Below, piece after piece: positions 7,863 to 27,226 of a DNA stretch of 27,226 nucleotides; the first letter of the stretch is position 1; every line of letters begins with the position of its first letter. Location of the stretch: IMG/VR virus record IMGVR_UViG_3300029319_000394, positions 1-27,226 of that record. One strand, written 5' to 3'. The notes under the pieces are model-generated. The model ran no database searches. It saw only the letters and a list, made by a program, of their open reading frames with translations, and was not told where the DNA came from. A program made the position numbers and the translations under genes. This DNA comes from a virus.

Positions 7863-8338
7863 ATAAATAAATCTTTTGCGTTTCCTATTATAGGTTTGTA
7901 TTTTGTTTTACCTTCAGATCTAAATGCGTGTAAAAAACTAGCTCGTGGTGTTCCCTCCGTATAGCTGCAGTGTATCCACCCGCTGTTAGGTTCACCTGGA
8001 GTATAAAATTCTAATATAAGCTGGTCATACGGAAGCTCTTTTTTGATCCAATCTGCAAGCTCACAATTGTCAACACCTACAACTTCAAAGTCCGCCGCCT
8101 CAGCTTTCGCATGTTGCGAATTCAAACTGCTGCCAATAGCAACACATAATTCAGGACTACGATAGCCTGATGTTATTTTAACTCTACCAAAATGATCACG
8201 AACTGGTTGTAAAATTTTTTCACAAAGTGTTTTTAATTTTTCTATTTGCTCTGCGTTAGGGTTATTATTAATACCCTTACGTATTGCTGTATCTGATTTA
8301 ATTAACTCTGAAAGAGTAAAGTTACGTGAAAGATTCAT
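7859..8338 (-). CDS. Endolysin, M15 family peptidase
   Basis: A 159-residue zinc peptidase of the M15 (VanY/D-Ala-D-Ala carboxypeptidase-like) type, expected to cut peptidoglycan peptides at lysis. The predicted zinc ligands are H76 and D83 in the S-Q-H-x(6)-D motif and H123 in G-W-I-H-C-S-Y. The T-S-G-Y-R-S-P motif (56-62) is typical of the family. E110 is a candidate catalytic acid. There is no signal peptide, so export would rely on the holin-like protein encoded immediately upstream, whose stop overlaps this start as TAATG. It is the last gene of the late operon, and its stop codon overlaps the stop of the converging SNF2 gene. Confidence 0.9.
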   Translation of the reverse strand: MNLSRNFTLSELIKSDTAIRKGINNNPNAEQIEKLKTLCEKILQPVRDHFGRVKITSGYRSPELCVAIGSSLNSQHAKAEAADFEVVGVDNCELADWIKKELPYDQLILEFYTPGEPNSGWIHCSYTEGTPRASFLHAFRSEGKTKYKPIIGNAKDLFI

Positions 8339-8532
8339 TATTTAAAAAATATTCCTAATGCGAAGAGTACAGCAGATCCCGCTGCTGCTAAGAGAACCCA
8401 ATAGACTTTATCTATCTTACCGCCCAACTTCTCGACGTCTTCATGTACATGTTTCAAATTTTTTTTGACACCTGATATGTGTCCGTACAAAGATAAAATA
8501 TGTTCTCTAGTATTTTTTGGTTGCATTGCCAT
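8338..8532 (-). CDS. Holin-like single-pass membrane protein
   Basis: A 64-residue protein with a charged, amphipathic N-terminal half (about 8-42, rich in His, Lys and Glu) and one C-terminal transmembrane helix (about 43-63: Y-W-V-L-L-A-A-A-G-S-A-V-L-F-A-L-G) ending in Lys. This resembles XhlA-type or other one-pass phage holin components. Size, topology and its place directly before the endolysin with TAATG overlaps on both sides support a lysis role. A second in-frame ATG two codons in is possible. No sequence motif proves holin activity. Confidence 0.75.
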   Translation of the reverse strand: MAMQPKNTREHILSLYGHISGVKKNLKHVHEDVEKLGGKIDKVYWVLLAAAGSAVLFALGIFFK

Positions 8533-13402: not shown

Positions 13403-14337
13403 TATCTATTTCCCATTAATGCAAATGGATTTTGATTTGCAACAGCTCCATATATACCAGCTAATGTTGTACCAACTCCTAATGCAGTCTGTAATGGTGT
13501 AGGATTTGGAACGTTACTTGTTTGTGTTTGTCCCGGATATCCACCCATAATACCTGCAACTTGTGCTGCATATCTATCTAATTGTTCTTGTGGTTGGAAT
13601 GTTGCCATTCTTGTAGCTTCTCTTGTAGCGTCTAGTTGAGCTTGTGCTTGTGCCTGGTTCAATGCGCCCAACGTTCCTAATTGTGAAATATCTCCTCGTT
13701 GTAATCCAGGCACAAGTGATGCTAGACCTAGCTGCGTTTGTAGATCAGCAGCTCTTTGAGCCTGTGCCTGACCAAAACCTTGTTGTAATAATTGAGCTTG
13801 TAGTGCTGCTCTGTTTCTATCAGAACCAGTATCATATTCTGCTAGTTGAACTCCTTCTCTTCCTCCACCAAATGCGCCTGACTGTACCGCTCTATCTCTA
13901 ATAGACTGTCTATTAATAGCTGCGTTTCTGTCAAATTCTGAAAGTGTTGCATCAATAACTTGTTGTTGATATGGCGACATATATTGTTGAGTTTGTGCCG
14001 CTGTCATTGGTCCTGTTAAATTCTGTGCTGCTGTTAAATATGGTTGAAAAGAACCAACACCTTGTGTTGCTAAAGTTTGTGCTTGTCTTTGTAATGCATC
14101 TTGTTGTGCTACTTGTGGTGCAAGTCCTGCTAAACTGTCTTGTCTAATTCCAAATTGTGTAGCTGCATCTTGTCTTGCTTTAAATTGATCAGCTGTTTCA
14201 CCTGTTTGTTGTGTTAATGATCCTATCCCTCTTGTAACTACTGGTACGGCTGTTTGAGCCGTGATCTGTGTTGCAAGATCTTTACCTAAATCTTCTACAA
14301 ACTGTGCGGGTAAATTTCTTACTGTTTCTGTTGCCAT
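13402..14337 (-). CDS. Gln/Ala-rich internal virion protein
   Basis: A 311-residue protein rich in Gln and Ala, mostly predicted helical. Landmarks are Y-M-S-P-Y-Q-Q-Q-V-I-D-A-T-L near 119-132, the segment S-G-A-F-G-G-G-R-E-G-V-Q-L-A-E-Y near 152-167, and a C-terminal P-N-P-T-P-L-Q-T-A-L-G-V-G-T-T-L-A-G-I-Y hydrophobic end. I recognise this pattern from many marine and other podovirus-like genomes, where it sits with internal core or ejection proteins. It overlaps both neighbours by TAATG. The virion role is inferred from family and position; its biochemical function is unknown. Confidence 0.75.
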   Translation of the reverse strand: MATETVRNLPAQFVEDLGKDLATQITAQTAVPVVTRGIGSLTQQTGETADQFKARQDAATQFGIRQDSLAGLAPQVAQQDALQRQAQTLATQGVGSFQPYLTAAQNLTGPMTAAQTQQYMSPYQQQVIDATLSEFDRNAAINRQSIRDRAVQSGAFGGGREGVQLAEYDTGSDRNRAALQAQLLQQGFGQAQAQRAADLQTQLGLASLVPGLQRGDISQLGTLGALNQAQAQAQLDATREATRMATFQPQEQLDRYAAQVAGIMGGYPGQTQTSNVPNPTPLQTALGVGTTLAGIYGAVANQNPFALMGNR

Positions 14338-16358
14338 TATATGACTTCTCCTAATCTTTGTGATGTTTGAAACATGTTACGTGCGCCATCTAAGCCTTGC
14401 GATTCTTCTGATACGTCACCTCCGGCTTCAAGGTTTTTCATCATATTATACATAACTTCTGCGCCTTTGTCTATATCTCCATCTCCTGCATTTCTAACAG
14501 CTTCAGCTGTAAATACAAACTCATTCTTTGATAATCTTGCAGGCACATCGTCTGCTTTTTCCATTCTTCCTATTGGTACAAAACCACCTTCAGCTCTTAA
14601 ATCCATTTCTTTGCCATCTAAATCTAATAAAGGCATAGTCTTTTTTGCTACTGGTTCAACGTCTCCACCTTCAGCCATAAATCTTGGTGCTGTATATGAA
14701 TAAGGATCTCTTCTTATAGCTGCAATATCTATACCTTCGCCTCTGTATGGTTCTCCTTCATCTTCTTCTTCAGGAGCACCAACACCTAATAATGGTAATG
14801 CAGATGCTATACCTATTGCTTTTAGTGCACTGATACCACCTTTACCATCTCCTAATAAAAAATTACCTGCTTTATTATCAGTTATAGCTTTTGATAATCT
14901 TTTTAAAAGATTAGGGTCTTTTTCTACTGTTTTAATAATTTGATCACCAACTGCTTTGTCTATTCCAGCTTGAGTTGCTACATTTGATTTTGTTGCAGCA
15001 CTAAATGCAGGAAAATCATCATACAATGGTGCACTAGATGATGTTGGAATTTTTGCTACATCTCTTGCATTTGGAAAACCAGAAGTTGCAAATTCATCTA
15101 TATTTACATTTGGATTTACAAGATCTGTAACTCCTCCTGATGCAACATCGCTTGCAACTCTTGCTCTGCTAGCATCAGTTGCTACTGACGATTGTTGTGC
15201 TCCTTGAGCCGGGGCCATTGTAGCTAGAGCTCCACTTAATGCTGCCGATCTTAATATACCTTTTGCGTCTAAATCTTGACCAGATGCTAATTGTAAACCA
15301 CCTTGTGTTAGTCCTGATATAGCTGCTTGTCTCATAAAAGGACTAGCACCAGCCATAAATCCTGTGCTACCAATAGCATATGGTGCATAAAGTGCTATTG
15401 CTGTTTGTACGTATGGATTCTTTAATAATTTTTTTCTAGTTCTATTTACTTTAGAACCAATTTTTTTAACTACTTTAGTTGCTTTTTTAATAATACCACC
15501 AACAAAATAATTTTGTCTTGCAACTTCTGTATCTGCAATACCACCTTCAGCCATAAATCTATAAGCTATAAAAGGATCTTGTGTTGTTGTTGGTACATTA
15601 GAAGCTGCTGCTGCGTTTGCTGCTGCTTGTTGTTGTGCTAGTAATTGTTGTAATGTTAAAACATTGTTACCATCACCATCATTATCTTGATTAATTGTAT
15701 TACCATATGCATCTATTGTTCCAGCCATTCTTTGAGACATATAATCTTCATAGTTTTTAAAAGTTTTTTTGCCAGCAGGCACAACTTTTTGATTATAAAA
15801 ATCTAAATTATTTAAAGGACCAAATTTACTAACAAATTTTCTTGCTAAATTAAAAGGTGTAGGAATATTACTAAAAAAATTTGCAATTGGATTTTTCTTT
15901 TTTCCTATATTTTCTACTTGTCTTCTATTAAAATCTCTGATTGCTCTACTTCTATTATAATCTTGTTGAGCTTTTGTATCTGTTACTTGATAATCTCCTG
16001 TTCCTCTGTCAGTTGTTCCCACCGTATCTTTATCGCCTCTACTTCCACCCCCACCTTCAAAACCACCAGGGTTATTTCCACCAGGTCCAAAGTCTCCTTC
16101 TAAAGAAGGTAAGCCACCAGGGCCTCTATTTGGTTTACCATCTAATGATCCATATAAATTTAAATTTACAAGTATGTCTTGTTCTTCGGGTGTAATATAA
16201 GCTAACTTTGCTGTAGGTGTATTTGGTGATGATTTTGCAATTTTTGGCACAGTTACCATTTCAGAAGGCATGTAGTTCATAACACCTGCTTGTTCTACAG
16301 GTTTCTCACTACCTTTTTTATACATCTGTCTTGCTTGTTGTGCGTTTGTGATTGCCAT
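14337..16358 (-). CDS. Minor virion protein with repeated MAEGG motifs
   Basis: A 673-residue modular protein. The N-terminus is disordered, followed by a Gly/Pro-rich linker (about 75-125). A basic helical region follows, then F-M-A-E-G-G with R-Q-N-Y-F-V-G-G (near 268-288) and a Lys/Arg-rich stretch (290-315). Next come hydrophobic Ala/Gly-rich segments (about 315-385), a second F-M-A-E-G-G near 560, and R-A-E-G-G near 587. The C-terminal module D-D-V-P-A-R-L-S-K-N-E-F-V-F-T-A-E-A-V-R (near 598-617) followed by G-D-G-D-I-D-K-G-A-E-V-M-Y is shared by many phage structural proteins. It is probably an ejected or core-associated protein, given its neighbours and the basic/hydrophobic patchwork. 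No enzymatic signature was seen. Confidence 0.72.
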   Translation of the reverse strand: MAITNAQQARQMYKKGSEKPVEQAGVMNYMPSEMVTVPKIAKSSPNTPTAKLAYITPEEQDILVNLNLYGSLDGKPNRGPGGLPSLEGDFGPGGNNPGGFEGGGGSRGDKDTVGTTDRGTGDYQVTDTKAQQDYNRSRAIRDFNRRQVENIGKKKNPIANFFSNIPTPFNLARKFVSKFGPLNNLDFYNQKVVPAGKKTFKNYEDYMSQRMAGTIDAYGNTINQDNDGDGNNVLTLQQLLAQQQAAANAAAASNVPTTTQDPFIAYRFMAEGGIADTEVARQNYFVGGIIKKATKVVKKIGSKVNRTRKKLLKNPYVQTAIALYAPYAIGSTGFMAGASPFMRQAAISGLTQGGLQLASGQDLDAKGILRSAALSGALATMAPAQGAQQSSVATDASRARVASDVASGGVTDLVNPNVNIDEFATSGFPNARDVAKIPTSSSAPLYDDFPAFSAATKSNVATQAGIDKAVGDQIIKTVEKDPNLLKRLSKAITDNKAGNFLLGDGKGGISALKAIGIASALPLLGVGAPEEEDEGEPYRGEGIDIAAIRRDPYSYTAPRFMAEGGDVEPVAKKTMPLLDLDGKEMDLRAEGGFVPIGRMEKADDVPARLSKNEFVFTAEAVRNAGDGDIDKGAEVMYNMMKNLEAGGDVSEESQGLDGARNMFQTSQRLGEVI

Positions 16359-16612
16359 TATTCTTCGTCCTTGTCAGATGATGCACCTAATGCTGGCATC
16401 TTTGCTACTTTAATTTTTACAGATCTAGTTATATCTTCTCTAACTGTATCTGTTTCTGGATTTGCAATATCGTCCTCTGCTTCTTTGTCAGAGTTATATT
16501 CATAATTTGTTTTTGTATTTCTTAAAACTACTTCAGTTTCACACTTAACGACAGGTACCTCTTTGCCGTCAACTGTTATATATTCTACTGATCCTTCTTC
16601 TTTAAATGCCAT
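16358..16612 (-). CDS. Small conserved structural-region protein, unknown
   Basis: An 84-residue acidic protein. An N-terminal beta-rich part (E-Y-I-T-V-D-G-K-E-V-P-V-V) is followed by a charged E/D segment and R-S-V-K-I-K-V-A-K-M-P-A-L-G before a D-K-D-E-E tail. It overlaps the next gene by TAATG and starts 1 nt after the previous stop, in the middle of virion genes. It may be a small virion or assembly factor. I do not recognise a named family. Confidence 0.6.
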   Translation of the reverse strand: MAFKEEGSVEYITVDGKEVPVVKCETEVVLRNTKTNYEYNSDKEAEDDIANPETDTVREDITRSVKIKVAKMPALGASSDKDEE

Positions 16613-16613
16613 A

Positions 16614-16940
16614 TTAATCTCTATTTATTTGTAGCACAGAAATAACCATATGTAACCTATTTCCTGTGGCTGCTTGTGCTTTTAAAATTTCACTTTCCTG
16701 CATTATAAGGGGTTGTGATAATAACTCAACTGTTTGATTAGACGATATAGCCTTTGTTTTAAACAAATTAAATACTGATGCACCAGCTGTTAAAGTAACA
16801 GATATACTATCAGCATTACCAGAATCTTCAGATACTAATATTGATTTAATAATACTAGTGGTTGCTGTTGGACTGGTATAAACAGTCGTATTTGACGTAT
16901 CGTTAAAATCTATTTTTGCGTTTGTATATATATTAGCCAC
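16614..16940 (-). CDS. Small beta-rich virion protein
   Basis: A 108-residue protein starting at GTG (A-N-I-Y-T-N-A-K-I-D). It is rich in Thr, Ser and Val and predicted all-beta, with the central S-I-L-V-S-E-D-S-G-N-A-D-S-I-S-V-T-L. I recognise this as a frequent small protein of marine phage structural regions, but no established function comes to mind; a tail or head accessory role is likely. The start overlaps the preceding 55-aa gene by 8 nt, and the N-terminal sequence supports GTG as the real start. Confidence 0.68.
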   Translation of the reverse strand: MANIYTNAKIDFNDTSNTTVYTSPTATTSIIKSILVSEDSGNADSISVTLTAGASVFNLFKTKAISSNQTVELLSQPLIMQESEILKAQAATGNRLHMVISVLQINRD

Positions 16941-17100
16941 TTAAAAACCAAGAGAATCTCTCTTGCTCCTGTTTTATTTCATCTAGAAAAGTTGAGTTTA
17001 ATTGTTCTTTCATAAGTGTCAACGCTCTATTGATTTGTTTTTGGTTTGAAAAATCATACTCTTCTTTTGGTTCTGGTATTCTTACAGTTACTTTAGCCAT
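16933..17100 (-). CDS. Short 55-aa conserved-looking phage protein
   Basis: A complete ORF of 55 codons plus TAA fills the gap between the tail protein and the 108-aa protein. The product begins M-A-K-V-T-V-R-I-P-E-P-K-E-E-Y and continues N-Q-K-Q-I-N-R-A-L-T-L-M-K-E-Q-L-N-S-T-F, ending E-Q-E-R-F-S-W-F-L-S-G. It is an amphipathic, charged, mostly helical protein. The start overlaps the stop of the upstream tail gene as TAATG, and its 3' end overlaps the next GTG by 8 nt. This coupling and the resemblance to short proteins in the same position of other podovirus-like genomes support it as real. Function unknown; it could be a tail-assembly or connector accessory factor. Confidence 0.75.
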   Translation of the reverse strand: MAKVTVRIPEPKEEYDFSNQKQINRALTLMKEQLNSTFLDEIKQEQERFSWFLSG

Positions 17101-19052
17101 TATCTTCTACCGTCCGGTTGTATATCTAATCTTAATGTACCAAATCTCCAAGATTCACTAGCTGCATCATTTGCTATTTTTACACTAGCAAATCTACCTC
17201 TAGCTCTTGTATCTTTTTTCTGTGTTGTAGATGTAATAGTAAAAGGACTATATGTAGAATTAGATGATGTATCTTGTGGATATCTTTTTAATCCAATAGT
17301 TACTTTTGCATTACCTAATAACGTTTTAAAATCTGGTATAAATCTTCTCATAGCTATAAACACTTCTCCTGCAACTTTAGGGCCAGCACTTCTACCTTGT
17401 GCATCTTTTGATCTTTGTTCAAGATCAAAGTCAAATGATTGTATAAACGATGTAACAGTAGTAGTTGTACCATTTGGATTTACTTGATCTGTACCTACTT
17501 CATGTTCAAAATAAGTTGTTTGACCTAAACCAGTTTGACCAACGATTATTGGAAACGTACCACTAGCAGAAGAATCATATTTAGTTGCATATGGGTTTTT
17601 ATATATTGTAGCATCCATCCAACTTGTTCTTGCTTCTGTTCCTGTATACCAAACGCCACCTCTCACACCTGCTGATTCACCAAAGTTAAATACAACATAT
17701 TTGTCATTATAATCTGAATTAGCTGATGGATAGTACCAAGTAATTTCTGTAAATAGATTATTTAAACCTGCTGCAACTTGTTGTCCTTTTGTAATATCAA
17801 AGTTATCAAATACAGAATCTTCAACAGTGCATGGTAATGATTTTACTGTACCATCATAAAGAAAGAAACCTTTTGGACTTAACCAAAAAGCGGCACCATC
17901 TATTTCAACAACAGCATTTTGTCCAATCAATCCACAGTTTGTACCAACTTGTTCAACAGCGAATGTAAATGGTGCACCAATAAATTTCATTGTATACAAT
18001 GCATTATCAGTCCATATCAAAATAACTTCTTTTGCTTTTAATGCACCCATAATTTTAGTACCATCTTGTAATCTTTGTGTACCAGCTGTGTTTGTTGCTG
18101 ATGGTATAAATGTATTAATATCTTCTTGATCAGAAAATCTTATAAACATATCATCTTGTGTTCCTGTATTTCCAATAGTTGTTTCTGTTCCTAAATGAAT
18201 CAAGTGACGTGTTGTAGGTGAGATAAGAGTAGATCTTGTTTTAGTTGGATTGTTTCCTGTTGCAAAGTTAGATGTTGTTGTTGATGCACGTGTTGTTAAT
18301 CTTGCACCGATACCAGCGTCCCAAGTAAATGTTTTACCGTTTAAAATAGTTGCAACTAATACTTCACCAAAATTATCTAATGACCATAGTCCGGGTTCAA
18401 GTGTAACATCAGATGCAGCTGCTGCTTCACCCCAGTTACCATTACTCCAAGGGTCCATACCCCAACCATAACCATAAGTTTGTTCTCTCGGTCCAACAGG
18501 CTCATATGGTTTTATACTTAAACTACCACCTGTTGATACTGTGCCACTAGCATTACTAGATTGATTAATCGTAAATGTACTTGTTGTTGGCACAGATATA
18601 ACTTGAAAATTTTTATCTTCAAAGTCAGCATCATTAAAACCTGTACCACCAGGTAGTGTTACAGAATCTAATTGTACAATGTCTCCAACTTTTAAACCAT
18701 GAGTTGATTTTGTAATTGTACAAGTTGCTGATCCACTTGTTGTTGCAATTGTTGCTGATGTTAATGTAGCTTTCAAAGGTGTGATGTCATACAACTGACC
18801 TTCAAAATAAATAAGTAAAAATTTATCTGATCCAAGAGCCACGTATCTATTACCATCATTATCTACGAAAGCATGTTGTTTTCTAACTACACCAGAAATA
18901 GTATCAGTAGTAAGTGATGCCCAACCTCCAACTTTTTCTGGTAGACCATATCTAAATCTTACATTGTCAGAATCAACCCAACGATTTTCTGCACCTGCTG
19001 GTGTATCTTGTTTATCTATTCCAGGTCTAAAATTAAACTCAACGAGAGCCAC
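17100..19052 (-). CDS. Tail tube/nozzle-type structural protein (tail stabilisation protein)
   Basis: A 650-residue all-beta protein starting at GTG with L-V-E-F-N-F-R-P-G-I-D-K-Q-D-T and then N-R-W-V-D-S-D-N-V-R-F-R-Y-G-L-P-E-K-V-G-G-W, a strongly conserved start in marine podovirus-like phages. Tryptophan/Gly-rich segments (Y-G-Y-G-W-G-M-D-P-W-S-N-G-N-W-G near 193-208) and repeated beta-blade-like stretches suggest a propeller such as that of nozzle or P22 gp10-like stabilisation proteins. It is expected to close the tail end and hold packaged DNA; the nozzle role is inferred from the family pattern and from lying between ejection-type and fibre genes. A GGAG ribosome binding site precedes the GTG. 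Confidence in a virion tail role is high, in the exact subunit lower. Confidence 0.75.
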   Translation of the reverse strand: MALVEFNFRPGIDKQDTPAGAENRWVDSDNVRFRYGLPEKVGGWASLTTDTISGVVRKQHAFVDNDGNRYVALGSDKFLLIYFEGQLYDITPLKATLTSATIATTSGSATCTITKSTHGLKVGDIVQLDSVTLPGGTGFNDADFEDKNFQVISVPTTSTFTINQSSNASGTVSTGGSLSIKPYEPVGPREQTYGYGWGMDPWSNGNWGEAAAASDVTLEPGLWSLDNFGEVLVATILNGKTFTWDAGIGARLTTRASTTTSNFATGNNPTKTRSTLISPTTRHLIHLGTETTIGNTGTQDDMFIRFSDQEDINTFIPSATNTAGTQRLQDGTKIMGALKAKEVILIWTDNALYTMKFIGAPFTFAVEQVGTNCGLIGQNAVVEIDGAAFWLSPKGFFLYDGTVKSLPCTVEDSVFDNFDITKGQQVAAGLNNLFTEITWYYPSANSDYNDKYVVFNFGESAGVRGGVWYTGTEARTSWMDATIYKNPYATKYDSSASGTFPIIVGQTGLGQTTYFEHEVGTDQVNPNGTTTTVTSFIQSFDFDLEQRSKDAQGRSAGPKVAGEVFIAMRRFIPDFKTLLGNAKVTIGLKRYPQDTSSNSTYSPFTITSTTQKKDTRARGRFASVKIANDAASESWRFGTLRLDIQPDGRR

Positions 19053-19062
19053 AGTCTAGCTC

Positions 19063-19779
19063 CTATATTTTATCTTTGTAAGCCCAACCTCTAGCAGAGC
19101 TTATATAAACTAATGTAAATGCTGCTCCATTTACATTAACAACTAAGTTTGATGCCGAGCCTAAAATGTTGGAACCATTTCTGCCTATGGTTAAGTTGTT
19201 AGAATTAAAATTACCTGCTGCACCTCCACCATCAATAAAATGTACTTCTGCGCCAATAGAAGGTGATGCTGGTAATGTTACAGTTACAGGCGATGAACTT
19301 GTATCTACAATTACTTGATCGTTTGCAACTGCAGTATAAGTACCATTAGTTGTTATGTATCCTCTTTCAACAATACTTGAATTTACATTTGTGCCATCTG
19401 AATATAATAAAGATTTTGATTTTACAGGTAATGATATTCCTGTTCCTGATACAGTTTTAAAAGTTAATGTATATCTATTTGAAGTTCTATCTGTAGAATC
19501 TTCAACCACGTATACTCTCTCGACTGAATCTGGAACTGTTACAGTCCTGTTAGCCGCAAGAGTACCCGTTAGTTTTAAGTACAGGTTTTTACCATTTGAT
19601 ACAGCTCCGTTAGAAATCGCTAATGCTTGATCAGACGATGCTACATCTATTGCGATGTAACCAGATGAGGCTTGTTCTAATTGCTGTAAATTGGTGTTAG
19701 TTATAGTACCCCATGTACCTGACTTCTCACCAGTAGTCATTAATTCTAATTTTAAATTACTCGAAAATGTTGATGCCAT
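19063..19779 (-). CDS. Short tail fibre or fibre-adaptor protein
   Basis: A 238-residue beta-rich protein. The start S-T-F-S-S-N-L-K-L-E-L-M-T-T-G-E-K-S-G-T-W-G-T is the conserved N-terminal anchor of many marine phage tail proteins. After a central beta part (N-L-Y-L-K-L-T-G-T-L-A-A-N-R-T-V-T-V-P), the C-terminal section has V-T-L-P-A-S-P-S-I-G-A-E-V-H-F-I-D, a pattern seen in short beta-structured fibre ends. It is the gene nearest the nozzle protein among the fibre-type genes, which suits an adaptor or short fibre connecting to the tail hub. No enzymatic motif. Confidence 0.7.
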   Translation of the reverse strand: MASTFSSNLKLELMTTGEKSGTWGTITNTNLQQLEQASSGYIAIDVASSDQALAISNGAVSNGKNLYLKLTGTLAANRTVTVPDSVERVYVVEDSTDRTSNRYTLTFKTVSGTGISLPVKSKSLLYSDGTNVNSSIVERGYITTNGTYTAVANDQVIVDTSSSPVTVTLPASPSIGAEVHFIDGGGAAGNFNSNNLTIGRNGSNILGSASNLVVNVNGAAFTLVYISSARGWAYKDKI

Positions 19780-19786
19780 AATTCTC

Positions 19787-20032
19787 CTATGGGTTAAGCG
19801 GATCTATTGGGACCCACGTTTGCCCTGCGTTTGGATCTATTGGGTTCCAAGATACCACAGAAACAGTGCCTAATGCAAGGTTAAATCTCTTACCAGTAAC
19901 ACTAGTTCCAAAGGCTACATCTGTGTTTCCAACAGCAATATTGACTCTATTACCATTAGCTAGAACCACTACATTTTGTATACCTACGCCTGCAAAAGTT
20001 GTTGATGAAAAGGATGTTGCTCCAAAAAACAT
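19787..20032 (-). CDS. Short beta-repeat tail protein (two-repeat paralogue)
   Basis: An 81-residue protein with the same architecture as the product of the next gene upstream. The N-terminal cap F-F-G-A-T-S-F-S-S-T-T-F-A-G-V-G matches Y-F-G-A-T-S-F-S-A-A-A-F-S-D-V-G. Two repeats of about 22 residues follow (N-G-N-R-V-N-I-A-V-G and T-G-K-R-F-N-L-A-L-G). The C-cap N-A-G-Q-T-W-V-P-I resembles N-A-T-Q-V-W-T-E-I. It probably forms a small beta-structured appendage or cap on the tail or fibres. It is clearly a paralogue of its neighbour, created by duplication with loss or gain of repeats. Function is not known. Confidence 0.7.
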   Translation of the reverse strand: MFFGATSFSSTTFAGVGIQNVVVLANGNRVNIAVGNTDVAFGTSVTGKRFNLALGTVSVVSWNPIDPNAGQTWVPIDPLNP

Positions 20033-20033
20033 A

Positions 20034-20669
20034 TTATATCTCCGTCCAAACTTGAGTTGCGTTTGTTTGCACCGCTTCCCATTTTCTAATTAATATATCA
20101 GATGTACCTATGTTAAATCTATTACCAGATGGTAACACTTTAGACTTAGCTATTACAGTTACATTGTTAGTTGAAATGTTAAATCTTTTGCCTGTTACAA
20201 TTGCTGTTGCATTTGCTTTGGTTGTTGCATTACCAAGAGCTACTTCAAAACCATTACCTGTAACAGATAAATTACATTTACCTATAATTGTTACATTACC
20301 AATACCTAGATCTAAACCTTGACCAGTTATATCTGGTTTAGCATTAGCTTTTGTTATAACTGTTCCATTACCTATCTCAAAACCATTACCTGTAACTGGT
20401 ACATCTTTTGGTATGGAAGCTTGTGCATCACCTATACCTAATTCTAAACCATTACCTGTTAATATTTCTCTAGCTTTTGCAACAATTGTTACATCACTAG
20501 TTCCAATATTTACTCTATTACCTGTAACGGAAACATTAGCTTTACCGATGATTACATCATCACCGATAGCTACATTGATCCTTGATCCAAGGACATTGAC
20601 GAATGCGTTAGGATTAAAGCCTACATCAGAGAAGGCTGCTGCCGAAAAGGAAGTAGCACCGAAGTACAT
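20034..20669 (-). CDS. Beta-repeat tail protein with eight 22-residue repeats
   Basis: A 211-residue protein made of an N-cap (1-23), eight consecutive repeats of exactly 22 residues (24-199) and a 12-residue C-cap. The repeat consensus is roughly V-x-V-T-G-N-x-x-x-x-I-G-x-x-x-V-x-x-K-A. The Gly-Asn turn is at a fixed place, and hydrophobic residues alternate as in stacked beta strands (beta-solenoid or trimeric fibre shaft). Repeats 1, 2, 7 and 8 carry an R-x-N type motif after G-N/K/S, while repeats 3-6 carry G-x-E or G-x-D. It is a paralogue of the 81-aa protein encoded next. Location among fibre genes indicates a tail or fibre shaft component; receptor binding is possible but unproven. 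Confidence 0.78.
   Translation of the reverse strand: MYFGATSFSAAAFSDVGFNPNAFVNVLGSRINVAIGDDVIIGKANVSVTGNRVNIGTSDVTIVAKAREILTGNGLELGIGDAQASIPKDVPVTGNGFEIGNGTVITKANAKPDITGQGLDLGIGNVTIIGKCNLSVTGNGFEVALGNATTKANATAIVTGKRFNISTNNVTVIAKSKVLPSGNRFNIGTSDILIRKWEAVQTNATQVWTEI
20073..20600 (-). repeat. Eight tandem 66-bp coding repeats
   Basis: The eight repeat units of the 211-aa tail protein correspond to eight consecutive 66-bp blocks with no insertions or deletions. They are degenerate at the nucleotide level (recurrent plus-strand words such as accattacctgt), so this is a protein repeat under selection rather than a recent DNA amplification. Confidence 0.8.
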
Positions 20670-20675
20670 GCGAGG

Positions 20676-21695
20676 TTACCTCGCAGTTGCTGGGATATTA
20701 TTAGATCCTACGATTGATTGACCAAATGCCATGAAGAGATATTCTCCATCTCCATTTAAACCTGAAGCACTTCTTATTTTGAAACCATTTGATAAAAAGT
20801 CTACATCAGCACCTGAACTTTCTGCATTATTATTTTCAGCATCTAAAACTGCTTGATTAGGATTTAAAGCATCTCTTTTATTATCAAAAATTCCCCAACT
20901 GTTTGCGCTATCTGTTCTTTTAAACATAATCCAAGATGGTGCAAATCCACAATAAACAAACGTATTATCAGATGCGTCTATTCCAGTATATGAGCCAAAC
21001 TTGCTAAAACCAGTTTTTTCTGCAAAGCAGTAGGCAATCATATCATCTCCATTACCATTACTACCATTAGAACTTCCTAATGAAAAAACACTTGAAGTTG
21101 GTATTGTGCTATTCCATCTTGTTGCACCTGTTGCTTTTGCATTATTTAAATTTAATCTAATAAATTCTGAACCAGCTAAAGCATTATGCCAAGTTATCCA
21201 ATCATCAGAATCATCTCTATTTTTAACAATAACCATATCTAAAGCCTGCCCTAATCCATGACCCACAGTAGCATTAGCACCTGTACCTGTCCATTTAACA
21301 ATACTAAATCCTGCTGTTGTATTAGCAGATACAGTTGAGTTTATAGAGCCATCTGAATTTGATGAACCTTGACCATTTGCTTTCCAGTTCCATGATGCGT
21401 ATGTTTGACTATTTTCATTTACTCCATTATCAGCTCCATTTGTAAAACCATCACTATCAAAAGATGAAACAATACCAGATAAAGTTTCTTCAGCATTAGT
21501 GCTATCTGAAGATATTCTTTTAGTCACTCCTCTAACTGCATCTACAAGATTATGAGAAGATGTTGAGCTTCTTTCTTTTATCCAAATCAAATCAGGTTGA
21601 AATCCAACTCCTGTAATTGCATTTGTTGAGCCATTTCCAGTATAAAGTTTAGTATTAAAATAGTCTGTAGATTTATTAATTGTTGTATAAGCCAT
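20676..21695 (-). CDS. DUF7483-like fibre / receptor-binding protein, copy B
   Basis: A 339-residue beta-rich virion protein. It starts A-Y-T-T-I-N-K-S-T-D-Y-F-N-T-K-L-Y-T-G-N-G-S and contains G-V-G-F-Q-P-D-L-I-W-I-K (30-41), G-V-T-K-R-I-S (56-62) and T-Y-A-S-W-N-W-K-A near 98-106. Two further W-I/I-V-K type strands follow, with Y-L-F-M-A-F-G-Q at the C-terminus. It is paralogous to the product at 24161-25207, with matching blocks along the whole length. I recognise the architecture from marine phage fibre operons, where it is usually only annotated as a DUF (DUF7483-like; family number from memory). A host-surface binding role is inferred from context. Confidence 0.7.
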   Translation of the reverse strand: MAYTTINKSTDYFNTKLYTGNGSTNAITGVGFQPDLIWIKERSSTSSHNLVDAVRGVTKRISSDSTNAEETLSGIVSSFDSDGFTNGADNGVNENSQTYASWNWKANGQGSSNSDGSINSTVSANTTAGFSIVKWTGTGANATVGHGLGQALDMVIVKNRDDSDDWITWHNALAGSEFIRLNLNNAKATGATRWNSTIPTSSVFSLGSSNGSNGNGDDMIAYCFAEKTGFSKFGSYTGIDASDNTFVYCGFAPSWIMFKRTDSANSWGIFDNKRDALNPNQAVLDAENNNAESSGADVDFLSNGFKIRSASGLNGDGEYLFMAFGQSIVGSNNIPATAR

Positions 21696-21696
21696 A

Positions 21697-22986
21697 TTAT
21701 AAATTTAATCCTTTTGTTGATAACGCGGTATAGCCAGTTGGTACATCATATTCAAAAATTCCTATTCCACTTGCGTTAGTTCCTGCACTAGATACTGCTG
21801 TTGTTCCAAAATAACCATTACCGAAGTTTGCCTGACAATAACTAGAATGTGTTGTAGCATCACCCCATGCAAAAAAATAAGTTCCAGCAGTTATTGTTAT
21901 CGCTCCTGTGCTTGTAGTTGGATCAGCACTATTTTGCCATGTTCCATTTTTACTAAAAAATAATCTGTTATTATCTAAATCCATAGCTACACCAATAATA
22001 TCATTTTGTGTCCAAGTATTCCCACTCCATGAAATATTAGAATTATTATTTCTTACATATCCTGTATTGTCATAATAACCCCAAGAAGTAGATGTACTTC
22101 CTAATTGAGCAGACGCAGATATTGTTGGAGATTGTGTAATACCTACAAGTTGTCTATAAGGTGTAGCAGAGCCACCATTGTGTTTCAATTCAAAATAATA
22201 TTTACCAGAAGATGCTGCTAAAGTTGATGTGTTCCAAGTTTCAATACTAGTACCACCACTATTTAAAGCAGTATTACCAGAACTAAATGTTGAACTAGCA
22301 TAATAATTATCTAAAGGATTCCATGTAGCAAAAACATTACTTGGACAATCTTCTGTTTTTGTACAAGTACCAGTTAATGTAAAATTATTTCCATTACCAG
22401 AGTGGTCTGTGCCTGTATTACCATCTTTTAAAATAAAATACCCATTAGTTCCATAAGTTACACTTGGAGCAGTATTTATTTTCCATTCACCAGTTGTTGC
22501 ATCTGTTGAGCCGAATACTGTTGGGTCATAAGCTGTTCCATCTACAAAATGAAAATGTGACATAACACATTCTAAATTATCATAAGAACTAAGACCACCA
22601 CCATAAGTATGAATATAATGCTCTGCACCACCACCATTATAGTTTTGAGCATCAACTGTTATTGATGTTTTTACACTTTCGCCATTGTAATAAAGTGTTC
22701 CAGTTCCACTACTCACTTTTAAATGAATATGATACCAAGCATTTACATCTCTCATATAGACTGTTGGTGAAAATCTTGTGTTTCCATTATTTCTATAAAA
22801 AGTAATGTTGTTTGGTGTAGTATCTCCTTGAAAAAATAAACCACTTGGATCACTATCACTAATACTCCAAAGATAAGGAACATTAGTAGTTGTTGGTGCA
22901 AAATTATTTATTTTTACCCAGAATGATACTGTGTAAGTATTACTTGTTGATGGTGTAAAATCTGTTTTACTAAAATATCCTGCCAT
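21697..22986 (-). CDS. LamG-SPRY adhesin / fibre protein, copy B
   Basis: A 429-residue protein with two sugar/protein-binding beta-sandwich domains. Residues about 15-160 resemble a laminin-G/concanavalin A-like fold (Y-T-V-S-F-W-V-K, A-W-Y-H-I-H-L-K-V, G-T-L-Y-Y-N-G-E). A linker with G-T-N-G-Y-F-I-L and D-H-S-G-N-G-N-N-F-T follows. Residues about 255-395 resemble a SPRY/B30.2 domain (G-K-Y-Y-F-E-L-K, R-Q-L-V-G-I-T, I-G-V-A-M-D-L-D-N-N-R-L-F-F-S-K-N-G). The end F-G-N-G-Y-F-G-T-T-A-V-S-S-A-G and F-E-Y-D-V-P-T-G-Y is nearly identical to copy A at 25216-26574. It is probably displayed on the tail to bind glycans or surface proteins. It overlaps the upstream gene by TAATG. Confidence 0.8.
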   Translation of the reverse strand: MAGYFSKTDFTPSTSNTYTVSFWVKINNFAPTTTNVPYLWSISDSDPSGLFFQGDTTPNNITFYRNNGNTRFSPTVYMRDVNAWYHIHLKVSSGTGTLYYNGESVKTSITVDAQNYNGGGAEHYIHTYGGGLSSYDNLECVMSHFHFVDGTAYDPTVFGSTDATTGEWKINTAPSVTYGTNGYFILKDGNTGTDHSGNGNNFTLTGTCTKTEDCPSNVFATWNPLDNYYASSTFSSGNTALNSGGTSIETWNTSTLAASSGKYYFELKHNGGSATPYRQLVGITQSPTISASAQLGSTSTSWGYYDNTGYVRNNNSNISWSGNTWTQNDIIGVAMDLDNNRLFFSKNGTWQNSADPTTSTGAITITAGTYFFAWGDATTHSSYCQANFGNGYFGTTAVSSAGTNASGIGIFEYDVPTGYTALSTKGLNL

Positions 22987-24158
22987 TAGAATTGTCCTCC
23001 TCCTGATGCTCCGTGAGATATAGTAATACTAAACGCACGGTCCGCTGTTTGACCCTCTGCATCCGTTGCTCGAATAGTAAAACTATACGTTGTTGTTTGC
23101 GTTGAGCCTGATTCAGTACCCGTAATTGCACCTGTACTTGTATTTAAACTTGCACCACCTGGAAGTGCTCCAGATTGTACAGCAAAACTTGTAGCATTTG
23201 TTGCAGCAACTGTAAAGTTGATAGTTCCGCCATTTGAAACTGTTCCCAAACTACCTGCTCCAGTTGTCCATGCAGGTGCATCAGATACCGTAAGTAAAGC
23301 TGTTCCTGATCTACATGCAATACCATCGTTATTTTCTAGTCTTAAAAAATATGTACCATCAACTGGTAAAGTAAAGTTTGCAGTAACAGATGTTGCACTT
23401 GAAAATGTCACAGAGTTTGCAGTAACAATCGCACCAGTAGATGCGTTGATTGCATCAACAAAAGGTGGTGTAGAACTGTCCTTAAAATTTGTACCAGTAA
23501 TCACTACGTTAGCAGCATTATTATCAATAACAGTTGGACTGATAGATGAAATAGTTGGAAACGTAATACTATCTGCAAAAGATAATGTCCCTGATCCGTT
23601 AGTCGCGATTACTTGATTAGCTGTGCCATCAGCTGTTGGTAATTTTAAAAATACACCAGTATTGATTGTAGGTGAATTATGTATTGTGTGATTACCCATG
23701 TGTGCATGTGATGAACACTGGTAATATAAAATGCTTGGTGTATCTTTATCTACAGCAATTGTTGTGTGTGCACCTGAATTTCCTGGTGCAGGTGAACTAC
23801 CTGTATTAGTTACTCCAGTTGTAAACTCTGTTGTTTTAGCAGCATCAACATAAAATCTTAATGGGTGTCCAGAGTTAGATGCATCTGATTGATCAAATTT
23901 ATAATAGTATGGTTTTGCTGTATCATTACCTTTTAATTCTATAATTGGTGCTTCAATACCATTTATAACATACGCATTAGAACTACCAACGTTGTAATAT
24001 GGATGACCAGTAGTCTTAGTTGCAACTGTAACTGTGTATACTATTGGAGCAGACGATGATGCATAAGGACTAAGAAATCCTCCACCACCAGAATCTTTAC
24101 TGATGATAAGATTACCGTTTTGGTCCTGAATTGTATCTACTTTTAATATACTACTCAT
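22986..24158 (-). CDS. Tail fibre protein with cupredoxin-like, IPT/TIG and Ig-like domains
   Basis: A 390-residue multidomain fibre. The N-terminal S-S-I-L-K-V-D-T-I-Q-D-Q-N-G-N-L-I-I is a phage fibre anchor pattern. Residues about 38-160 form a cupredoxin-like domain with the ligand set His98 (S-G-H-P-L-R-F), Cys148, His151 and Met154 (Y-Y-Q-C-S-S-H-A-H-M-G), so it could bind copper. An IPT/TIG Ig-like domain follows (about 197-290, I-S-P-T-V-I-D and V-I-T-G-T-N-F). A He_PIG-like Ig domain (292-384) comes last, with L-P-G-G-A-S-L-N and I-R-A-T-D-A-E-G-Q-T-A-D-R-A-F-S. The C-terminal half is homologous to the truncated gene at the right edge. It is probably a receptor-contacting fibre; metal binding is a prediction from ligand spacing. 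Confidence 0.75.
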   Translation of the reverse strand: MSSILKVDTIQDQNGNLIISKDSGGGGFLSPYASSSAPIVYTVTVATKTTGHPYYNVGSSNAYVINGIEAPIIELKGNDTAKPYYYKFDQSDASNSGHPLRFYVDAAKTTEFTTGVTNTGSSPAPGNSGAHTTIAVDKDTPSILYYQCSSHAHMGNHTIHNSPTINTGVFLKLPTADGTANQVIATNGSGTLSFADSITFPTISSISPTVIDNNAANVVITGTNFKDSSTPPFVDAINASTGAIVTANSVTFSSATSVTANFTLPVDGTYFLRLENNDGIACRSGTALLTVSDAPAWTTGAGSLGTVSNGGTINFTVAATNATSFAVQSGALPGGASLNTSTGAITGTESGSTQTTTYSFTIRATDAEGQTADRAFSITISHGASGGGQF

Positions 24159-24160
24159 AA

Positions 24161-25207
24161 TTAATTAGCTGTTGTTGGTACTCCATTTGTTGTTTCATCG
24201 GCTACAAAAGGGTCTTTAGCAAATGCCATAAACATATAAGGTTCGCCACTTTGATTGTGATTTGAATGTGACATCCTTAATTTAAAACCATTACTATAAA
24301 TATCTGATTCGGTATTAGCATCTGGTGCAGTTTCTGCGTAAGTACTATTTGCGTATAAATCTCGCCATTGACCATTAAAATCTCTATTAGGGTCTCTTAT
24401 TAACCAGTCAGCAGTTCCACCTATTTTTTTAGTCATTACAAAATTAGGTTTAAATCCTGTGTAAATAAAAGGGCCCTCTGTATCTCCGTTACCATTATAC
24501 GTTCCTATTTTACAATAACCTTTTACGTTTTTAAAAACATACATTATATAATTTTGTCCACTAGCATTTGTATCAGTATCTGTTCCAATATTAACCACTG
24601 TTGATGTTGGAACAGCATCATTAAAAGCATATGGTTGATTAGAATTTGCAGCACTATTGGAATCCAAAACCATTCTTGTTCTACCATTAAAATCATTACA
24701 CCAAAAAATCCAGCTAGGGGTTTGAGTTCTACTTTTAATAATAAGTGCGTCTGGAGTTCCACCAAGACCATGAGCAATAGTTCCATTTGAACCTGTGCCC
24801 GTATATGCGTATATTCCAAAACCAGATGTTGTATTAATAGAAACTGCTGTTGGTGTTATACTACCTCCAGATATAGCTGAAGTAGTTCCTGCTTTCCAAT
24901 TCCATGATACATAAGTTTGACCATTTTGGTTTGCACCATTGTCAGTGCCAACAGTAAAACCATCAGTACCAAAAGCTGTAAGTTGTTGAGCTTGTGTGTC
25001 TTCAGCGTTATTACGGTTTGGAGATAGTCTTGTAGTTACACCTCTTAAAGAATCAAAAGAATTATGATTTTCAGTACCACTTCTTTGTTTAAGCCATACC
25101 CAGTCAGGTTGATGTCCAACACCTGTAATAGAATTAGACGAACCTGTACCCGTGTAAAGTATAGTATTAAAATATACGTTTGATTTTTTAATTGCACTAT
25201 AAGCCAT
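24161..25207 (-). CDS. DUF7483-like fibre / receptor-binding protein, copy A
   Basis: A 348-residue beta-rich protein paralogous to the 339-aa protein at 20676-21695. Shared blocks are K-S-x-x-Y-F-N-T-x-L-Y-T-G (9-21), G-V-G-x-Q-P-D (30-36), R-G-V-T-x-R-x-S near 55-62, T-Y-x-S-W-N-W-K-A near 102-110, and the Y-M-F-M-A-F-A-K end. Loop regions between the blocks are much more divergent than the blocks, as expected for variable host-contact surfaces. It is the third gene of the first fibre cassette. A receptor-binding role is inferred from context; no enzymatic motif is visible. Confidence 0.7.
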   Translation of the reverse strand: MAYSAIKKSNVYFNTILYTGTGSSNSITGVGHQPDWVWLKQRSGTENHNSFDSLRGVTTRLSPNRNNAEDTQAQQLTAFGTDGFTVGTDNGANQNGQTYVSWNWKAGTTSAISGGSITPTAVSINTTSGFGIYAYTGTGSNGTIAHGLGGTPDALIIKSRTQTPSWIFWCNDFNGRTRMVLDSNSAANSNQPYAFNDAVPTSTVVNIGTDTDTNASGQNYIMYVFKNVKGYCKIGTYNGNGDTEGPFIYTGFKPNFVMTKKIGGTADWLIRDPNRDFNGQWRDLYANSTYAETAPDANTESDIYSNGFKLRMSHSNHNQSGEPYMFMAFAKDPFVADETTNGVPTTAN

Positions 25208-25215
25208 ATTATATC

Positions 25216-26574
25216 CTATCCATAAGTATTTAAATTTTTTGTGTTTAACGCATAATAGCCAGTTGGGACATCGTATTCAAATAAAGATCCATTACCATTT
25301 GAACCAGCAGAAGATATAGCCGTTGTACCAAAATATCCGTTACCAAAGTTTATGCTTTGTTTATTACCATTTCCATAGACATCAAAAAATGGAGTAATTG
25401 GAGTGCCAGCAGCAGGCCAAGACACACTTAACTTACCATTTACACTTGTTCCTGGAAATGCTTGGTTATTATTACCACTACCATCTGCCCATGTGCTATC
25501 ACTTGCACCACCATTTTTTGAAAAATAAATATTTCCATTAGTTATATCTAATGCAACGCTTATAATATCTCCTGCAGTATATGATGACATGTAAGTTGTA
25601 GAAGAACCATTATAGTAAATTTCTCCGTTTTGGTGAATATAAAATGCGCCTGTTCCATAGTAGTAACTACCACCATGTGTTTTATTATTACTAAAAAATA
25701 TACCTAATCTATGTCCAGTTGTTGCTGCTACATCAACTTTAAATTCCCAATACCACTTTCCTGTTTCAGGTGAAATAGTTCCAAATGTCTGTCTGTTAGC
25801 ATTATCAGGGCTAGACATAGTTAAATTAGCATTTGAAAATGTTGGTGTTGCTATACCAATACTTTGTTTAATTACATCATTAGGATTTAAAGTGCAGTAA
25901 TTATTTGATGGTGTATCAAGTGATTGTATTAAATTTCCATTAGTTGTAAAATTATTTGATTGACCTGAAGAGTCTAATCCTAAATTACCAGAGTTTTCAA
26001 ATTTTAAATGAAAACCATTTGTACCCCAAGTAACACCAGATGGTGATTTAAATTTCCAAATATTTGTTGCAGTATTTGTTTCACCAAATACAGTTGGAGC
26101 CACAACACTTCCGTCAACAAAAGCTAGGTGACTTATGTTTCCTTCAAATTGATCTGCGTTATTAGAGTTATCACCAATAGTATGTGCAAGAGCTGAACCT
26201 AATCTTAAAACATAATCTTGTGAAGGATAACTTGTATCATTAAATTCAGTTTCTTGTACTCCATTTACCCAAAGTTTTATTCTATCGGCAGCTGTCGCTT
26301 GTGTAGTATCAAATTGAACAACGATATGATAAAATGCTGATGGATCTCTAAACAATCTTTTAGTTGTTACATAGTATTGTTGAGAACTTACTTTTTCATA
26401 AAATGAAAATCTATTTGCACTATTAAATCTTATATCTGCTCTATTGTTGGAGTCTGTGTATGTGCTAAAAATAGAACCATCACTACCTATATCAGCTCTT
26501 TTTACCCACATAGATAAAGTAAATTTTTTGTTTCCAGTTGGTGTTGAAAATGTATGTGTTAATGTACTTGCCAT
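25216..26574 (-). CDS. LamG-SPRY adhesin / fibre protein, copy A
   Basis: A 452-residue paralogue of the 429-aa product at 21697-22986. The N-terminal LamG/ConA-like domain (about 1-155) has F-T-L-S-M-W-V-K, F-Y-H-I-V-V-Q-F-D and I-K-L-W-V-N-G-V-Q. After W-G-T-N-G-F-H-L-K-F and S-G-Q-S-N-N-F-T, a SPRY-like domain (about 270-395) has G-K-W-Y-W-E-F-K, I-S-V-A-L-D-I-T-N-G-N-I-Y-F-S-K-N-G. The shared C-terminal peptide F-G-N-G-Y-F-G-T-T-A-I-S-S-A-G and F-E-Y-D-V-P-T-G-Y closes it. No signal peptide, consistent with a virion rather than secreted protein. Likely a host-surface binding fibre subunit. Confidence 0.8.
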   Translation of the reverse strand: MASTLTHTFSTPTGNKKFTLSMWVKRADIGSDGSIFSTYTDSNNRADIRFNSANRFSFYEKVSSQQYYVTTKRLFRDPSAFYHIVVQFDTTQATAADRIKLWVNGVQETEFNDTSYPSQDYVLRLGSALAHTIGDNSNNADQFEGNISHLAFVDGSVVAPTVFGETNTATNIWKFKSPSGVTWGTNGFHLKFENSGNLGLDSSGQSNNFTTNGNLIQSLDTPSNNYCTLNPNDVIKQSIGIATPTFSNANLTMSSPDNANRQTFGTISPETGKWYWEFKVDVAATTGHRLGIFFSNNKTHGGSYYYGTGAFYIHQNGEIYYNGSSTTYMSSYTAGDIISVALDITNGNIYFSKNGGASDSTWADGSGNNNQAFPGTSVNGKLSVSWPAAGTPITPFFDVYGNGNKQSINFGNGYFGTTAISSAGSNGNGSLFEYDVPTGYYALNTKNLNTYG

Positions 26575-26583
26575 AATATTATC

Positions 26584-27226
26584 CTAGTTAAACTGCCCTG
26601 AGTTGTTAGCTGCAAAAAGAAATGTTAAACTAAATGCTCGGTCAGCAGTTTGTCCCTCAGCATCTGTTGCTCGTATAGTAAAGTTAAACGTTGTATCCGC
26701 TGAAGCACCAGATTCCGTTCCTGTTAATGTAGACGATCCTGAGCCACTATTCAATGTAATTCCACCAGGTAGTGATCCTGATTGTACAGTCATACCTGTT
26801 GAATTTGTTGCTGTTAAAGTTATTGTTCCTATACTTGAACCTCCAGAAAATGTACCTAATGTCCCTGCTCCAGTTACCCATGCTGGTGCATCAGAAACTG
26901 TTAATACAGCACCTGTTTGCACTGCATTACCATCTGGGTTTTCAATATATAATTTGTATGTGCCATCCACAGGCAAAGTAAATTTAGCTGTAATACTTGT
27001 TGCAGATGAAAATGATACTTCATCAGCTACAACGGTTGCTCCTGTAGAACTATTAATAGCTGTAACCAAAGGCACTGATACAAAATTAGTTCCTGCTATT
27101 GTACAAGTAGTTTGTGTGTTTTCAATTGTTGATGGTGTAATAGATGAAAAAGTTGGTCTTGTTTCTGTAGTTAAAGTAATAGATCCACCAAGGGCCACTG
27201 CTTGACCATTGATTGTAATTTGTCCA
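26584..27226 (-). CDS. C-terminal part of an Ig-domain tail fibre (5' end beyond window)
   Basis: The frame is open to the right edge: upstream of a GTG at 27198 it continues as G-Q-I-T-I-N-G-Q-A, so this GTG is an internal Val, not the start. The visible 213 residues hold an IPT/TIG domain (T-R-P-T-F-S-S-I-T-P-S-T-I and I-A-G-T-N-F) and a He_PIG-like Ig domain (L-P-G-G-I-T-L-N and I-R-A-T-D-A-E-G-Q-T-A-D-R-A-F-S), ending N-N-S-G-Q-F-N. This matches the C-terminal half of the 390-aa fibre at 22986-24158. Whether the missing N-terminus also has a cupredoxin-like domain cannot be seen. It is the first visible gene of fibre cassette A. Confidence 0.8.
   Translation of the reverse strand, partial: GQITINGQAVALGGSITLTTETRPTFSSITPSTIENTQTTCTIAGTNFVSVPLVTAINSSTGATVVADEVSFSSATSITAKFTLPVDGTYKLYIENPDGNAVQTGAVLTVSDAPAWVTGAGTLGTFSGGSSIGTITLTATNSTGMTVQSGSLPGGITLNSGSGSSTLTGTESGASADTTFNFTIRATDAEGQTADRAFSLTFLFAANNSGQFN

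Follow-up and report, generated by a model that had tools for sequence, protein, structure and literature searches.

No bacterial group in surface seawater is more abundant than SAR11, and host recognition by its phages is, to our knowledge, poorly understood. One end of a viral contig carries what an initial annotation had read as a three-gene tail fibre cassette present twice in tandem. This raises the questions of how many cassettes the locus holds, how the copies are related and what they do together. The window analysed here is the entire linear IMG/VR record (27,226 bases), which ends inside the first gene of the block and displays its two last cassettes. Six ORFs on the minus strand follow the order Ig-domain fibre protein (A), LamG-SPRY protein (B) and DUF7483 protein (C), then directly A-B-C again, ahead of conserved genes (D1, D3 and D4). 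The positions given are assignments within the array described below.

26584..27225, minus strand: A1, Ig-domain fibre protein, C-terminal 213 aa (He_PIG), assigned to position 2
25216..26574, minus strand: B1, LamG-SPRY lectin-like protein, 452 aa (Pfam Laminin_G_3 and SPRY), assigned to position 2
24161..25207, minus strand: C1, DUF7483 protein, 348 aa (DUF7483, 5e-105), assigned to position 2
22986..24158, minus strand: A2, Ig-domain fibre protein, 390 aa (He_PIG), assigned to position 3
21697..22986, minus strand: B2, LamG-SPRY protein, 429 aa (Pfam Laminin_G_3 and SPRY), assigned to position 3
20676..21695, minus strand: C2, DUF7483 protein, 339 aa (DUF7483, 2e-121), assigned to position 3
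20034..20669, minus strand: D1, conserved repeat-rich gene closing the array, 211 aa (homologue of HTVC023P gp68)
19063..19779, minus strand: D3, tail-protein homologue (PHROG tail matches; 46-52% identical to HTVC023P gp69 and HTVC027P gp69)
17100..19052, minus strand: D4, virion structural or tail-stabilisation type protein (phrog_3287, 7e-103)

The start codon of A1 is absent, as the contig end cuts the ORF and its start lies beyond it. Pfam PF24299 (DUF7483) covers C1 and C2 over almost their full length. In tblastn searches, B and C were matched full-length in HTVC121P, HTVC011P, Skadi and others, and A was matched at its C-terminus. The window carries the pelagiphage cassette, that is, an A with the Ig C-terminus, a LamG-SPRY B and a DUF7483 C in this order, and D1 comes after the last C in the bounded arrays of relatives. 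No tRNAs or Rfam RNAs were found in the window.

The window is probably a fragment of an uncultured relative of the HTVC023P-type pelagiphages, judging from the matches of three proteins. PolA (compared by best match, without a tree) is 62% identical to its counterparts in HTVC027P and 023Pt_psg01 and 55% to that of HTVC023P. D4 is 49%, 64% and 48% identical to the homologues in HTVC027P, 023Pt_psg01 and HTVC023P, respectively, and an M15 peptidase shares 81% identity with its HTVC023P counterpart. The genomes of these three phages are ~58-61 kb, and phages of this type are known mainly from metagenomes (PMC9599517).

The two visible cassettes consist of three homologous pairs in the same order, in agreement with the initial annotation. 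Pairwise protein alignment gives 58% identity over 212 aa for A1 and A2 (E 4e-68), 34% over 471 columns for B1 and B2 (E 1e-52) and 44% over 349 for C1 and C2 (E 1e-85). Homology spans nearly the whole shared length of each pair, and pairwise protein comparison gave no significant cross-pair match among A, B and C. At the DNA level, the copies align in two patches, 465 nt of C at 70% identity and 399 nt of A at 68%, and the longest exact word common to both is 16 nt, around the C start codon. The shared C-terminal peptides that had been pointed out are present, but they are family-wide. For B, NFGNGYFGTTA...FEYDVPTGY proved to be the consensus across about 70 (68-72) proteins, so its near-identity between the copies is no sign of recent copying.

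The number of cassettes at this locus can be read from relatives, using an upstream gene U (151 aa) and the downstream D1 as array boundaries. Between U and D1, seven distinct contigs hold three A-B-C cassettes (L094, L145, L147, L155, L159, L165 and L221), six hold another fibre or fibre pair followed by two cassettes (L073, L180, L234, L238, L247 and L321), and three hold arrays with a split middle A (L085, L130 and L178); these loci were retrieved by similarity to the genes themselves, and the counts are not natural frequencies. Among the IMG/VR loci, tandem A-B-C occurs in one, two and three copies, and no A, B or C was found at the U-D1 locus of HTVC023P and two other contigs. The arrays with a split middle A read A-B-C-A-A-B-C, with the middle A seemingly in two ORFs; their position 1 is a 279-304 aa protein, which in L178 has a sub-threshold match to the TNF family.

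The A proteins of these arrays differ by position (counted from one end in contigs without both flanks). Position-1 A proteins read QITINGVAV(N/S)LGGSATIP and position-3 A proteins start MSSILKVDTI, and a peptide common to most position-2 A proteins is found in A1:

27169..27225, minus strand: position-2 signature in A1, GQITINGQAVALGGSITLT

The N-terminus of A2 is the position-3 sequence MSSILKVDTIQDQ. The lengths of A also depend largely on position, being mostly 263, 253-277 and 385-415 aa for positions 1, 2 and 3, respectively. The best matches of A1 (87%) are the middle A proteins of three-cassette arrays (L145, L147 and L170), and those of A2 are the position-3 A proteins of L182 (91%), L221 and L088 (80%). 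Judged by these matches, signatures and lengths, the copies in the window are positions 2 and 3 of the array. Two copies are indeed visible, but a reading of exactly two is not supported, as relatives have three positions; "twice" probably reflects the truncation, at the contig end, of a usually three-position array. Going by the relatives, position 1 should lie past the contig end, the window stopping short of U. In L238, the closest bounded relative, position 1 is occupied by another LamG fibre, accompanied by a 138-aa partner. Contig ends that fall inside such arrays can disguise a three-copy system as a two-copy one.

Trees of A, B and C (54 sequences each) bear on the age of the positions. 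The A tree groups by position with short branches and the B tree groups by position with long branches; four changes of position label are required on each, compared with 15 on the C tree. When the divergent genomes L094, L205 and L152 are removed, the B tree splits exactly by position (supports 89, 99 and 99). The nearest neighbour comes from the same position for 43 of 46 A proteins, 45 of 47 B proteins and 29 of 47 C proteins. In B, the position signal comes from the linker and the C-terminal tail; the N-terminal LamG part and the SPRY core contribute much less. Two copies from the same genome resemble each other no more than copies from different positions of different genomes do. Given this and the grouping of A and B, the sequences indicate that the positions are old, with no homogenisation seen among them. 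The proposal that the copies could recombine with each other finds no echo in these data, and replacements of B keep to the same position. The C tree has a weak position signal and poor support, and position clades were not rejected by the AU test (p 0.23, 0.34 and 0.41). C could follow position too; movement of C between positions, at which the 15 changes hinted, was dropped on the strength of this test, such exchange being neither shown nor excluded.

Comparison of the window with L088 and L238 shows where the cassettes vary. The flanks are 90-96% identical to those of both contigs, with D1, D3 and D4 at 92-96%, while B2 and C2 are 45-50% identical. At position 2, B and C are 35% and 46% identical to those of L238, and B1 and C1 are 92% and 63% identical to those of L088. 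The identity of A to both contigs remains 78-89% throughout. At the nucleotide level, identity is ~85% in A2, ~60% across B2 and C2, and 88-97% from D1 onward. Against both contigs, A-B-C cassettes with hypervariable B and C thus lie beside conserved neighbours. Because B and C diverge between near-identical flanks and a retained A, this pattern indicates that they are exchanged within a conserved frame and that the cassette is not passed on as a whole. In cultured Skadi-1, a hypervariable region has been published (13,646-15,713; PMC10504331). It takes in the B homologue together with most of C, ends short of the tail-fibre (A) gene, and is independent population-level support for the exchange of B and C. 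Elsewhere in the structural module, a second mosaic gene was observed: a 673-aa protein (14340-16358 in the window, compared with 11047-13086 in L088) alternates between blocks of 85-97% and 56-58% nucleotide identity, while its neighbours are >90% identical to those of L088.

The cassette had also been proposed to be duplicated, or acquired twice, as a unit. The simplest account is that the unit multiplied long ago, and this part of the proposal survives, but duplication or acquisition as an intact unit in this phage is not supported. Acquisition of the cassette two (or three) times independently, from different phage families, we consider unlikely. It would fit the single copies found in Autographiviridae pelagiphages and in HTVC010P-type Skadi-1, and the two copies in HTVC103P and HTVC104P. 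Against it, both positions at the U-D1 locus recur in many contigs, whose A and B proteins belong to common lineages; multiple acquisition, if it happened, thus predates this group. Beyond that point, multiple acquisition and old duplication with later exchange are inseparable on this evidence.

What the cassette might do is suggested by the predicted structures of B and C. The AlphaFold model of B2 (pLDDT 84) consists of two concanavalin-like sandwiches, and that of C2 has a pLDDT of 92.4 and a pTM of 0.91. The following parts were distinguished:

22342..22986, minus strand: B2 LamG/pentraxin-like half, residues 1-215 (VIA-align: 4dqa, Z 18.5; serum amyloid P, Z 16.7)
21709..22335, minus strand: B2 SPRY half, residues 218-426 (Foldseek E ~1e-12), ending in NFGNGYFGTTA...FEYDVPTGY
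20706..21668, minus strand: three internal repeats of ~100 aa in C2, residues 10-112, 126-228 and 226-330 (profile-profile comparison)

In the model, the first half of B2 resembles pentraxins and a Bacteroides carbohydrate-binding protein (Z 16-18.5). The SPRY fold of B is recognized by Pfam (8e-10) and by similarity of the B2 model to the Ash2L SPRY domain (Z 23.5). The three C2 repeats are mutually homologous (profile-profile E 6e-15, 5e-13 and 1e-13) and the strand pattern repeats in the model. Foldseek and VIA-align found no convincing PDB match for C (best Z 6.1), which does not imply a novel fold, and the sequence search returned a weak match to the CanA cannulae protein alone (E 0.003). 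Strong BFVD matches to C were set aside, as they are seemingly other phage proteins with the same domain, one of them named DUF7483. ORFs with two or three consecutive DUF7483 profile matches were observed in five contigs (L121, at 2-2635, L232, L265, L125 and L197). Fifteen ORFs join B and C in one protein, and LamG, SPRY and DUF7483 also occur together in phrog_19943, which argues that B and C work together.

We think it rather probable that the locus is a positional array with one multi-subunit tail fibre encoded per position, A serving as the adaptor and B and C as exchangeable binders, and that the fibres are displayed together. A would dock, probably on the tail, through the short N-terminal motif that differs between positions; going by this motif, the N-termini of A may dock on distinct sites. 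The Ig-like C-terminus of A would carry the next subunit, and the three proteins would together build a single fibre. B, a double concanavalin-like lectin (LamG plus SPRY), and C, with its triple-repeat DUF7483, would form the receptor-binding end and may bind cell-surface glycans. Alleles of B and C may be swapped between co-infecting phages by recombination in the conserved A and flanking DNA. The fuller picture is an even call: a rack of three ordered positions, each set by an adaptor gene that has its own docking motif and each carrying a swappable lectin pair. Several receptor-binding tips, evolving independently, would then appear on one SAR11 phage virion, and the locus could be refitted wholesale with other tandem fibre families.

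There is perhaps one chance in several, by contrast, that A, B and C are separate decorations of the virion (for example, carbohydrate-binding proteins on capsid or tail) and not subunits of one fibre. The classification of phrog_19943 under head and packaging speaks for such a role. However, the A-B-C order is invariant across unrelated phages, A is annotated as a tail fibre in several isolates, tail genes adjoin the array, and B and C occur fused.

Gene spacing bears on whether the cassettes are expressed together. Junctions within cassettes are -1 to 9 nt, and internal promoter-like sites showed no excess over shuffles, as was also the case for separate per-cassette promoters or terminators. 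Tight junctions and promoter-like sites at chance level make co-expression of all cassettes likely. All positions are probably transcribed together, and a virion would probably carry two or three different adhesins simultaneously; the suggestion of two adhesin sets on one virion is plausible on the same grounds. It is very unlikely that the copies are alternatives, with one cassette expressed or donating sequence to the other. The hypervariability of B and C would suit such a system, as would HTVC200P (L005, MH598801), in which, within an A-B-c-B-C-A region that apart from this runs forward, one C gene (gp036, 7384-8424) sits in reverse orientation between two B genes, a possible inversion or switch. 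In the arrays, though, every cassette has the same orientation within one tightly spaced gene string with no excess of promoters, and homogenisation between copies was not seen, with no common word above 16 nt.

A recent tandem duplication of the intact cassette in this phage's lineage has next to nothing left to recommend it beyond the identical gene order and the homology of the pairs: the copies are 34-58% identical and not closer to each other than copies at different positions in other genomes are, same-position relatives elsewhere are closer (87-89% for A1, up to 91% for A2 and 92% for B1), the A and B proteins of different phages cluster by position, and B and C change where A and the flanks are retained.

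Multi-adhesin phages, hypervariable lectin cassettes, and single and double cassettes in cultured pelagiphages are already known. In the open literature searched, we found no mention of DUF7483 and no description of tandem A-B-C arrays, the original HTVC103P report lying outside that search; as far as this literature shows, the positional three-gene array is apparently undescribed. The profile of phrog_19943, a virion structural protein, has LamG, SPRY and DUF7483 in the order of B then C, but with the domains fused, long extra regions and no separate A gene. The branched TSP1-4 complex of Ackermannviridae (PMC11414711) resembles the model proposed here in combining several adhesins that have conserved docking parts and exchangeable receptor-binding parts. 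Those spikes are each one polypeptide that docks by XD/TD (T4 gp10-like) domains, whereas the window has three polypeptides per unit, with Ig-like domains; A, B and C have no XD/TD match in Pfam, although the libraries may omit these domains and the A1 N-terminus is missing.

Closer parallels come from pelagiphages. Cultured HTVC023P (gp59-62) and phage 023Pt_psg01 also carry tandem paralogous fibre-like genes between homologues of U and D1, but these belong to an unrelated protein family, with a single gene per unit and no homologues of A, B or C. There are four such paralogues in HTVC023P and three in 023Pt_psg01, 44-64% identical within a genome, with several pairs aligned over partial length. 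We also observed that these paralogues (16242-21938 in HTVC023P, L006; 9472-13679 in 023Pt_psg01, L389) have an 85-aa domain in common with the downstream D3. From these gene contents, the U-D1 locus seems to accommodate sets of tandem adhesins regardless of protein family. HTVC121P and Skadi-1 have homologous A, B and C genes in the same order (tail fibre, lectin-domain protein and hypothetical protein), but only one cassette, and a much longer A (777 and 800 aa, respectively) with another N-terminal part. HTVC103P and HTVC104P, cultured on Ca. Pelagibacter HTCC7211, have two A-B-C cassettes in the same orientation, as does the window, but with two genes (gp66/gp65-type) between them and another backbone, and their products are annotated merely as hypothetical proteins. 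A fixed array with position-specific adaptors and swappable lectins provides testable candidate receptor-binding proteins for SAR11 phages and explains where variation concentrates, and the cultured two-cassette HTVC103P is a ready model.
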